Positions 24,641 through 47,625 of a stretch of 64,000 nucleotides of DNA are shown here, in pieces. Within the stretch, counting starts at the first letter, position 1. Each line of letters opens with the position of its first letter. This stretch comes from an uncultured Dysosmobacter sp. Its GTDB lineage: Bacteria; Bacillota; Clostridia; Oscillospirales; Oscillospiraceae. The DNA is taken from contig NZ_CANRMB010000002.1 of the NCBI RefSeq assembly GCF_947631635.1, positions 62,001 to 126,000 on the forward strand, read 5' to 3'. The notes under the pieces were generated by a model, which saw only the letters and a list, made by a program, of their open reading frames with translations, had not been told where the DNA came from and searched no databases. The translations under genes were made by a program, and so were the position numbers.

Positions 24641-24835
24641 AGATAGCCAACGCAGCCGAAAAGGAGAACATGCGCCTGTTCAACCGACGGGCCGAGGGTC
24701 CGCCAGTGCGCAAGGCGCATGTGCGTTTCCTATGAAGTCAGGCACAGCGGGCCGCATATACGGTCTGCAGCGCCGCGTATACTCCTCGCATTCTCAGCGG
24801 ATATGCAAAGAAACATGCCACACATGGTACGTCAT
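24641..24835. repeat. structured dispersed repeat, copy B (right half degenerate)
   Basis: From about 24650 this aligns with copy C: CGCAGCCGAAAAGGAG (C has CGCAGTTGAAAAAGAG), then TTCAACCGACGGGCCGAGGG and GTCCGCCAGTGCGCAAGGCG, then the near-identical core GTGCGTTTCCTATGAAGTCA with GGCACAGCGGGCCGCATA. After about 24770 the similarity fades and no matching right-hand terminal repeat is found. It occupies most of the 24380-24886 gap between the sigma-54 region and the MocR gene. Confidence 0.65.
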
Positions 24836-24838
24836 CTA

Positions 24839-24893
24839 CGTATAGAAAATCGTATGGATACAGCTCAGCCGTATCCATACGATTTTCTATACG
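24839..24893. repeat. perfect 23-bp inverted repeat (long hairpin)
   Basis: CGTATAGAAAATCGTATGGATAC is followed after nine bases by its exact reverse complement. The right arm overlaps the last codons of the MocR gene. It is A/T-mixed without a T-run, so it is not a classical intrinsic terminator, though it could stall or stabilise the MocR transcript. Confidence 0.7.
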
Positions 24894-26311
24894 CGCGGCG
24901 GAACCAGATACAGCCGTTCCGTCTCCCGCTGGATCTGCAGCATGCCGGTGCGGATCATTTCTTCATCACATCCCGCATAACTCAAACGGATAAAATGACG
25001 CTTCATTGCCTGCTGACTGCAGGCAATGCTGGGGATCACCTTGATATTCTGCCGCTGGAGAAGGCTCCAAAGTTCGACAGACTCCACATTTTCCGGCAGC
25101 TGGACCCAGAAAAATGCGCCGCCGCTTTCATTGTGATAGGGCAGGCTCAAAAAGCGGGAGGCCTCGATCATCTGCCGCATCAGTGTCCGCTTGCGCGCAT
25201 AGTCCTGCCGCAGCGTCTGAATATGCCGTTCATATAAGCCCTGCTTGATGTAAAGCGCCAGGGCCTCCTGCATGATGGCCGGCGTGGCGACATCCGCGTT
25301 GAACTTCGCGGCGGTGATCCGGCGTTCAAACCGTTCCGGGACCACCATATAGCCGAGACGAAGCCCCGGAGCCAGACACTTTGAAAAAGAGGTCAGATAG
25401 ATGACCTGGTCGTGTGCCTTGGTATTCCAGAGCGTGCTTTTTTGCCCGCCTTCAAAATACAGCTCCCCTAAGCAGTCGTCCTCAATGATCACAAATCCGT
25501 GCTGCTCGGCCAGCGTTAAAATGGCCGCACGCTTTTCGGGGCTGAATGTCACATTGGTGGGGCACTGGAAATTTGCCATGGTGTAGTAATAATCGACAGG
25601 AATACGGGACAAGATGCCCTCAAGCGCCGCAAGATCCGGCCCATCTTCCTCCATGGAAACTGTCTCGATCTGCGCCCCGGCCCGCTGAAAGGAATTCGTT
25701 GCCACGGAATAGCCCGGATCATCCACCAGCACCACAGAGTTCTTGCTGATGATGGACTGACAGATCAAATTGATCCCCTGCTGGCATCCGTTGATAATAT
25801 GCAGATGCTCCGGGCAGACCGTCTCTCCCCTCTGGGCAAAGTTCTCGCAGATCACATCCCGAAGCGCGGGAATCCCGCGGGTCGGAGGACGCCGGAGCAG
25901 CTCTTCCGGCTTGTCCTGCGCCAGCTTCTGAATGAGTCCGGCAAAGCTCCGGGACTCCTCTATCCCCACGACCGGCGTGCTGCTCGCAAAGTCGATCCAC
26001 CCTTCCGACAGGCTCTGCCCGTGCTCAAAGCTGTCCAGCATAACGGTGTCAGAATAGAATTCCAGGCTGTCTAACGGCAGAACGTAGCAGCCGCTCCCGT
26101 GGCGCTTTTGGATATAGCGGTTCACCTCCAGCATGTCATAGGCTTTTTCGACCGTAGAGATATTCACGCCATATTTCCGGCTCATAAAGCGATAGGACGG
26201 AAGCGAAGTCCCAGGCAAAATATGCCCACGCAGGATCTGGTTTTTGATCTCTGTGTAAATCTGATAGTGCAGGCTTTTTTCACCGTCACGCTGTAAGTGA
26301 AGGGGCTCCAT
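24887..26311 (-). CDS. MocR-type regulator (GntR helix-turn-helix fused to aminotransferase-like domain)
   Basis: A 474-residue MocR/GabR-type protein. Residues about 8-75 form the GntR-type winged helix (SLHYQIYTEIKNQILRGHI, then SYRFMSRKYGVNISTVEKAY). The rest is a fold-type I aminotransferase domain with NGCQQGINL, VLVDDPGYSVA, IIEDDCLGELYF and the PLP-lysine segment TSFSKCLAPGLRLGY. Such proteins sense PLP or an amino-acid aldimine and activate a divergent PLP-related gene. I use the ATG at 26311, which begins the conserved region; the ORF-track start adds a Cys-rich leader. It is divergent from methionine gamma-lyase, with a 9-bp palindrome between them. Confidence 0.9.
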   Translation of the reverse strand: MEPLHLQRDGEKSLHYQIYTEIKNQILRGHILPGTSLPSYRFMSRKYGVNISTVEKAYDMLEVNRYIQKRHGSGCYVLPLDSLEFYSDTVMLDSFEHGQSLSEGWIDFASSTPVVGIEESRSFAGLIQKLAQDKPEELLRRPPTRGIPALRDVICENFAQRGETVCPEHLHIINGCQQGINLICQSIISKNSVVLVDDPGYSVATNSFQRAGAQIETVSMEEDGPDLAALEGILSRIPVDYYYTMANFQCPTNVTFSPEKRAAILTLAEQHGFVIIEDDCLGELYFEGGQKSTLWNTKAHDQVIYLTSFSKCLAPGLRLGYMVVPERFERRITAAKFNADVATPAIMQEALALYIKQGLYERHIQTLRQDYARKRTLMRQMIEASRFLSLPYHNESGGAFFWVQLPENVESVELWSLLQRQNIKVIPSIACSQQAMKRHFIRLSYAGCDEEMIRTGMLQIQRETERLYLVPPRV

Positions 26312-26392
26312 ACGAGAACATGCTCCTTTTCCGCAGCAAAGTGTTCCCATACAGTTTATCAACTGTCCGCAACACTTTCAAGCTCCAAATGA

Positions 26393-39022: not shown

Positions 39023-39688
39023 TTATTTCCAGGTAAAATGGTCTCTGCCCGCTCCTATTTCAAAATGGTATTTTACGATCCCCAGATCCACTCTGGAATA
39101 AGGGCCTCCGGCGGCGTCCGCCCGGACGGAATTTCCATCCAGGGTCAGCCGGAATTTCTGCTGGTTCACGGCGGTGGGGGCCAGGAGGGCCGCCTCCATC
39201 CCCGCGCGGAACCAAGCGGGCATATCTCCATCCACCCGGCAGAGCGCCTCCATGGGCTTGCTTTTATGGGGGACGCCGTGGGTCGTGCCGTATCCCAGCG
39301 CGATGACGCAGACCAGCTTCTCCCCAGGCGCCACGGTACAGCGGCATTTTCCCCTTCGGAAGGTCAGCGCCACCCAGCAGCTGTCCAGCCCAAGCTGCGC
39401 GGCTTTCAGCACCAGGCGCTCTCCGTAATAGCCGATCTTTTCGTCCAGCTCCGGTCCTTTGGGGCCGACCAGCGCCAGGTAATTCCGCACGCCTCTGAAT
39501 TTGCCGTAGTGGGCCATGATCCCCTGAAATGCCTCAGGCTCATCTGCCGCCAGCTCTATGTGCAGGCCGCCCTCCCGGCTGCAGGCAGCGGTCTCCTCCC
39601 GCAATTCCGCCAGGACCTCCGCCGGGATGGGGCGGTCCGTATACTGCCGCACCGCATGGCGGCGTCTGATGGCTTCCAATACTTCCAT
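39023..39688 (-). CDS. nitroreductase-family protein
   Basis: A 221-residue flavoprotein of the nitroreductase family. The N-terminus EVLEAIRRRHAVRQYTDRPI is the typical FMN-binding RRSxRxY region, with GERLVLKAAQLGLDSCWV and APTAVNQQKFRLTL also fitting the family. The ATG at 39688 lies 8 bases after GGAGGAG; the in-frame GTG at 39697 would overlap that site. Reduces nitro or quinone compounds, or acts on an unknown flavin substrate. It stands alone between the serC terminator and a structured repeat. Confidence 0.85.
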   Translation of the reverse strand: MEVLEAIRRRHAVRQYTDRPIPAEVLAELREETAACSREGGLHIELAADEPEAFQGIMAHYGKFRGVRNYLALVGPKGPELDEKIGYYGERLVLKAAQLGLDSCWVALTFRRGKCRCTVAPGEKLVCVIALGYGTTHGVPHKSKPMEALCRVDGDMPAWFRAGMEAALLAPTAVNQQKFRLTLDGNSVRADAAGGPYSRVDLGIVKYHFEIGAGRDHFTWK

Positions 39689-39723
39689 ATCCGTCACTCC
39701 TCCTCTAATCTAATAAATGTGGA

Positions 39724-39915
39724 TATAGTCAGCGCAGTTGAAAAAGAGCTTGTGCTCCTTTTCAACCGGCGGACCAATGGTCCGCCGGCGCGCAAGGCGC
39801 GCGTGCGTTTCCTATGAAGTCAGGCACAGAGGGCCGCATACGCAGCCTGCAGCGCTGCACAGCAGCATTGCACGGAAAAGAATCCAAAGGATTCTTTTCA
39901 ACTGTGCCGACTATA
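39724..39915. repeat. structured dispersed repeat, copy C (192 bp, best preserved)
   Basis: Bounded by a 21-bp terminal inverted repeat with two mismatches (TATAGTCAGCGCAGTTGAAAA and TATAGTCGGCACAGTTGAAAA). Inside are hairpins GTTGAAAAAGAGC with GCTCCTTTTCAAC, CGGCGGACC with GGTCCGCCG, GCGCGC with GCGCGC, and GAAAAGAATCC with GGATTCTTTTC. The central unpaired segment TTTCCTATGAAGTCAGGCAC is shared with copy B. No ORF inside. It overlaps the 3' end of the ArsR gene. It behaves like a MITE in its ends and like a folded RNA in its interior. Confidence 0.75.
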
Positions 39916-40269
39916 GCCCGTGTCGGCAGCGCTGCGTATCACCGCGCAGATGTGCTCCGCCAGGGTCCGCAGTTTTTCCCACTGCTCCGTGTCCGCGTTG
40001 GGATAGTAGTAGTTCCGGGCCCCCTCCCTGTGCATACGGACAGCGCCCGCCTCCCGCAGGACGCGCAGATGGCGGGACACCGCCGGACGGCTGAGGTGCG
40101 TCCGCTCCGCCAGCTCTTTCGCCCGCAGGCCCACCTGCTCGCTCTCCAGCAGCGCCAGAAAGACCCTCTGCCTTGTCTCGTCACCCAGCGCCGCGAACAG
40201 CCCTTGCAGCCCTCGGAATTCCTCCGCCAGCGCTGTCCGCATCTCCACACACTCCGCGCATGCTTCCAT
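39898..40269 (-). CDS. ArsR-family winged-helix regulator
   Basis: A 123-residue ArsR/SmtB-type regulator: LQGLFAALGDETRQRVFLAL, then the recognition helix region LSRPAVSRHLRVLREAGAV and the wing MHREGARNYYYP. An N-terminal CAECVEM cysteine pair (residues 4-7) could bind metal. The ATG at 40269 follows AAGGAGGG; the ORF-track TTG start is weaker. Its last five codons and stop (YSRHS) are translated from the terminal repeat of the structured element, so its C-terminus was redefined by that insertion. No target gene is obvious nearby; the nitroreductase is a candidate. Confidence 0.82.
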   Translation of the reverse strand: MEACAECVEMRTALAEEFRGLQGLFAALGDETRQRVFLALLESEQVGLRAKELAERTHLSRPAVSRHLRVLREAGAVRMHREGARNYYYPNADTEQWEKLRTLAEHICAVIRSAADTGYSRHS

Positions 40270-40461
40270 CTGCTCTCCCTCCTTGGTCAAAAGCTTGGGA
40301 CCATTATACCACAGCTCCTTCTCTTTGGCATATTGGGAAAGAAAATCGAGCCGCCCGCCTCGCTTCCATTTTCTAGTACATTTTTAGCCTATACATGGCT
40401 GATTTCCCATTTTTTGCAGCTTTTTTTAATTTTTTCACGATTTTTTAACTGCCACATCTAT

Positions 40462-47432: not shown

Positions 47433-47449
47433 ACGGTCAAAATTGAATC

Positions 47450-47625
47450 GCTTAGATAGAGGCGCGGTATTCATCAGTACCCTCCGGCAAGGCCAGGCAG
47501 CCGCCGTTGGAGAAAGGGAACACCGCCGAAGCGCGGGAAGCTGCCTGGCTTTTCGCCGCTGGGTCGACAGAGAACATCTGTCGGACTGTCACAAAAACTT
47601 TGTGAAGCGCTATCAATGGCTGTCG
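47450..47625 (+). promoter_or_regulatory. lysine riboswitch (L-box)
   Basis: The segment carries the conserved L-box elements in order: GATAGAGGCGCG, then ATCAGTA, AAAGGGAACACCGCCGAAGC, CGCCGCTGGGTC, and GGACTGTCACAAAAACTTTG, closing with GCGCTATC, which pairs with the opening GATAG to form P1. These match the B. subtilis lysC element closely. It is followed by a terminator hairpin and then a polar amino acid ABC transporter, so lysine binding should stop transcription and repress uptake. This identifies lysine as the likely transported amino acid. Confidence 0.92.

Follow-up and report, generated by a model that had tools for sequence, protein, structure and literature searches.

What kind of repeat occupies positions 39724 to 39915 of the window (the whole stretch of 64,000 nucleotides that was analysed, from an uncultured Dysosmobacter sp.), and are the hairpins that fill it kept as RNA or as DNA? 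In the initial annotation this repeat, hereafter copy C, had been taken for a MITE whose interior folds as an RNA. Using its TIRs, a search of its own genome and a comparison of occupied and empty sites, we delimited a family-1 element of 188 bp without the duplicated TA (39726-39913, + strand). The left end (39724-39745, + strand), TATAGTCAGCGCAGTTGAAAAA, is of IS630 type and matches IS630 ends; the right end (39894-39915, - strand), TATAGTCGGCACAGTTGAAAAG, was retrieved by TIR pattern search and comparison with IS630 ends. The TIRs TATAGTCAGCGCAGTTGAAAA and TATAGTCGGCACAGTTGAAAA are 21 bp long with 2 mismatches, as first described. Copy C is short, non-coding and multi-copy, and it carries no transposase of its own.

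Based on the MFE fold (-103.5 kcal/mol; z = -10 for the + strand and -9.3 for the - strand against shuffled sequence) and on covariation, copy C was divided into two cloverleaf halves, each comprising one closing stem and three hairpins. The left half (39724-39816, + strand) is closed by stem P1 (39724-39736/39804-39816) and carries hairpins P2 (39738-39765), P3 (39766-39788) and P4 (39789-39801). The right half (39819-39911, + strand) is closed by stem P5 (39819-39829/39902-39911) and carries P6 (39832-39847), P7 (39848-39872) and P8 (39875-39899). At least four internal stems had been announced for this copy, and we found six internal hairpins in addition to the two closing stems. The core TTTCCTATGAAGTCAGGCAC (39808-39827, + strand) had been called unpaired, which proved wrong: it is the junction of the two halves and consists of the inner strands of P1 and P5, in which the left TIR is the pairing partner of TGCGTTTCCTATG and the right TIR that of GTCAGGCACAG.

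The site of copy C is empty in five congeners that have the orthologous gene pair. Comparing the occupied site (GTGGA-TA-[TAGTC...GACTA]-TA-GCCC) with these empty sites (GGATAGCCC, GGGATATCCC and similar) identified a 2-bp TA target duplication, whose left and right copies lie at 39724-39725 and 39914-39915. ISY100, an IS630-family element, likewise duplicates TA on insertion in vitro (PMC2170065). For a copy of the sister family 2, a compatible empty site was found in genome G013. Copy C is located between genes for an ArsR-type regulator (39898-40290, - strand) and a TM1586-type nitroreductase (39023-39697, - strand); it interrupts the last codons of the regulator gene and supplies its stop codon (39898-39900). 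The regulator gene lies just upstream of the nitroreductase gene in the same direction, and transcripts of the pair would cross the hairpins of copy C, which may affect neighbouring transcripts. Across insertions, no clear pattern of gene-context bias was found with a crude ORF caller.

To place the ends, we compared them with those of IS630 elements. A transposase with the PF13358 (IS630) domain was present in 13 of 86 congeners. One of them, G031, carries an 878-bp IS630 element with the ends TATAGTAAAACCAGTTGAAAA and TATAGTTACCACAGTTGAAAAG (also given as TATAGTAAAACCAGTTGAAAA...CTTTTCAACTGTGGTAACTATA), whose transposase scores above the NCBIfam NF033545 cut-off and contains PF13358; its relatives from other genera within the family have TATAGTCACCACAGTTGAAAAG at their ends. 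Over all IS630 loci, the end pattern yielded 21 matches versus 4 for the reversed-pattern control, and a MITE end from genome G042, TATAGTCACCGCAGTTGAAAAG, differs by one base from the end of the G031 element. The MITE therefore shares its ~22-bp ends with IS630 elements of one congener and of further genera within the family. Given these shared ends and the TA duplication, the repeat is therefore an IS630-type MITE, and the original call of a MITE is strongly supported by the TIRs, the duplication with its empty site in five congeners, the dispersed copies and the IS630-shared ends. A search of its own genome, an assembly of 59 contigs that is 94% complete, revealed no PF13358 transposase; a present mobiliser is missing there, lost or unassembled. 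We also considered the abundant IS630 copies of genome G034 as a partner and rejected them, as they have other ends (TAGAGC...). Solitary TIRs of the own genome were scanned as possible ends of an autonomous copy, and the 8 stretches contained only short forms and family-2 neighbours.

A different mobiliser would be expected if the repeat were a REPIN-like element, that is, palindromic DNA whose single-stranded hairpins are recognised and mobilised by a RAYT/Y1 transposase. The resemblance is real in that both are palindromic, intergenic mobile DNA made of paired units, with hairpins kept by compensatory changes (PMC3116915), and the own genome has one Y1_Tnp gene of RAYT-like length (a 185-aa ORF; contig C22:52488-52736, L345). 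REPINs, however, are associated with Y1 transposases and lie next to their genes (PMC3116915), whereas no MITE copy lies within 1.5 kb of this gene, the only Y1_Tnp gene found. Together with the TA duplication and the IS630 ends, this led us to reject a REPIN/RAYT origin, which we hold to be very improbable.

To assess how widely the IS630-type MITE is distributed, we searched the own genome with copy C, yielding 39 matches that correspond, after merging self-inverted matches, to ~24 family-1 loci, copies B and C among them. Most are 82-94% identical to copy C, i.e. not fresh. The TIR pattern occurred at 43 sites in the own genome, compared with 1 for a control pattern, and family 2 has at least 40 copies there (40 of 105 candidates scored). 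Copies at two other places of the window had been said to share both layout and core with copy C, which holds in part. Copy B (24642-24776, + strand) belongs to family 1 and retains the left half and the exact core, which is found in copies B and C against a chance expectation of 0, while its right half has decayed. Copy A (2263-2443, + strand), a member of family 2 with a decayed right end, keeps the two-half layout and the CTATGAA part of the core at the junction, as in copy C, but has other TIRs and different hairpin sequences. Next to copy B, where the gene at 24887-26362 (- strand) ends, we observed a long near-perfect hairpin (GTATAGAAAATCGTATGGATAC..., 24839-24893) that looks like a terminator.

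Relatives also contain the repeat: family 1 was found in 15 of the 61 congeneric genomes sampled, and a core-pattern search of GTDB returned 43 stretches, all from MAGs labelled Oscillibacter, Dysosmobacter or, in one case, Oscillospiraceae. No family-1 copy was found outside the genus in ~320 family genomes sampled, although few candidates were scored there at first look. The statement that no named family has this core holds within our Rfam and literature searches, which retrieved no paper on MITEs of this group.

We then examined whether the stems are maintained as structure rather than as sequence, as had been proposed, using a set of 32 diverse family-1 copies and the 78 pairs of the eight stems. 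Paired cells amounted to 91.2%, versus 83.0% in shuffled controls, which ignore relatedness, and 37-47% in controls slid by 1-3 columns, which keep it. Two-sided changes were present at 48 of 78 pairs versus 24 after shuffling (0 of 500 shuffles reached 48), and all eight stems covary. For the two long-range stems P1 and P5 alone, 85.5% versus 80.4% of cells were paired, with two-sided changes at 12 versus 6.4 pairs. RNAalifold recovered both cloverleaves from the copies. The proposal is thus borne out, with strong covariation in all stems, the two long-range ones included. Scarcity of copies in related genomes and absent covariation, which the initial annotation had named as refuting outcomes, were not what we observed.

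Covariation of this kind could reflect selection on an RNA fold, the MITE then carrying a structured RNA, regulatory or ribozyme-like, in its interior. The very stable fold (z about -10) and a two-cloverleaf layout that is constant across very different subfamilies are in line with this reading, as is the covariation of the long-range stems. Selection on one strand as RNA should lead to tolerance of G.U pairs and avoidance of A.C mismatches. With the structure fixed, family-1 stems contained 77 G-T versus 78 A-C cells (38:35 when distinct occurrences are counted), hence no preference for G.U, a balance that includes neutral decay of dead copies, by which any RNA signal would be diluted. As a positive control we used 30 lysine riboswitches of the genus, relatives of one located in the window at 47449-47620 (101.8 bits), for which RNAalifold structures gave 176 G-T versus 21 A-C. 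The same procedure applied to the MITE gave 78 G-T versus 54 A-C on one strand and 78 versus 46 on the other, a small G-T excess that goes with whichever strand the fold had been fitted to.

Orientation was informative as well. Hairpin segments that are exact reverse complements between copies occurred eight times (P3, P8), versus one time for control reversed loops, and two further inverted hairpins (P2, P6) have imperfect arms; since chance alone can produce flipped loops of 3 bases, ~six of the flipped pairs are informative. Since G.U is not preferred and hairpins occur in both orientations, we infer that the palindromes are kept at the DNA level. Both strands moreover fold equally well, the loops are short and variable, copy C has no match in Rfam either at gathering score or at E up to 1, and no promoter-like site was found in the region by a terminator/promoter scan of low information. 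An RNA folded from the interior, as initially suggested, is therefore unsupported, and we judge a structured RNA quite unlikely.

How DNA palindromes of this kind are assembled can be read from shorter forms of the MITE. Right halves with TATAGTC ends of their own were found at four separate sites (L014, L015, L018 and L019), and bare end-to-end palindromes occur as separate insertions at L022-L024 and in genome G049. The element is therefore modular, and the full form reads as two joined units. Each half is a palindrome that combines a TIR with an inverted copy of itself, formed by P1 + P2 in the left half and by P5 + P8 in the right half. Two additional hairpins are inserted where P1 meets P2 or P5 meets P8, and the two units are joined at CTATG/AAGTC. 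An IS630 transposase acting in trans would bind the ends, excise the element and paste it into TA. The palindromes would be maintained mostly because, in replication, one arm is copied from the other on a hairpin or cruciform template, possibly together with selection that keeps the ends matched to their partners.

The inner end copies could instead be kept only as extra transposase-binding sites, in which case the covariation of P1 and P5 would reflect joint adaptation to transposase specificity and not pairing. Both P1 and P5 indeed have inner strands that are inverted copies of the outer part of the TIR, and at the four right-half sites a half delimited by the inner copy stands on its own. 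However, the two ends of an element are often unlike each other, and at the subfamily level the match between each inner strand and its own end exceeds that in all 2000 shuffles; covariation also extends to P3, P4, P6 and P7, hairpins that are no copies of the ends. We consider this explanation unlikely. Taken together, the repeat is very probably a non-autonomous, modular MITE of the IS630/Tc1-mariner superfamily, whose internal palindromes are kept as DNA and which would be mobilised in trans. More doubtfully, the double cloverleaf might itself be an active part of the element, each half having to fold as single-stranded or cruciform DNA for the element to spread, through end matching, transposase assembly or replication-coupled copying.

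In genome G042 (L093:777-960) we observed a third subfamily, in which the left end (CTGTGCTGACTATGAAGTC) and its inner copy are perfectly inverted versions of each other; this end design may be ancestral.

Bacterial MITEs are usually described as IS remnants with a filler interior. The repeat is a new family of a known kind, the IS630-type MITE, with an unusual architecture, of Oscillibacter/Dysosmobacter gut bacteria. It shares the TA duplication, the absence of coding sequence and the multi-copy state with IS630/Tc1-mariner ISs (e.g. ISY100, PMC2170065) and their MITEs, and its ~22-bp ends are identical or nearly so to the IS630 ends found in its own genus and family; unlike in those MITEs, the interior is not an IS deletion remnant but a set of 6 hairpins and 2 closing stems in two cloverleaf halves. 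The two-cloverleaf design of this interior is fixed, its arms changing in concert across many subfamilies and species, and all module sizes (bare palindrome, half and double) exist as separate insertions. Correia elements, too, have TATAG-type ends and a TA duplication, and we know of no comparable multi-hairpin interior in Correia or NEMIS elements. These MITEs of Neisseria, a different host phylum, are alike in size (Correia, 204 bp), intergenic location, copy number (tens to >100) and folding TIRs (PMC10969869), the comparison covering layout and ends only.

Whether long palindromes in mobile DNA are kept perfect by selection or by hairpin-templated copying is a neglected question that this family makes testable now. 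Counting G.U versus A.C departures before covariation is called RNA would also provide a control for claims of conserved RNA structure in repeats. Were the double cloverleaf active, the family would represent a class of IS630-type MITEs that amplifies by structure-dependent steps and evolves by joining mobile palindromic modules.

Finally, mobile replicons were searched. Plasmids and phages gave no match by blastn, and the family-1 core was not found in viral contigs. An IMG/VR contig of 8464 bp (L217:1840-2021) carries a family-2 copy with TA-type ends between phage tail sheath and tail tube-like genes, and these MITEs therefore also ride on (pro)phage DNA.
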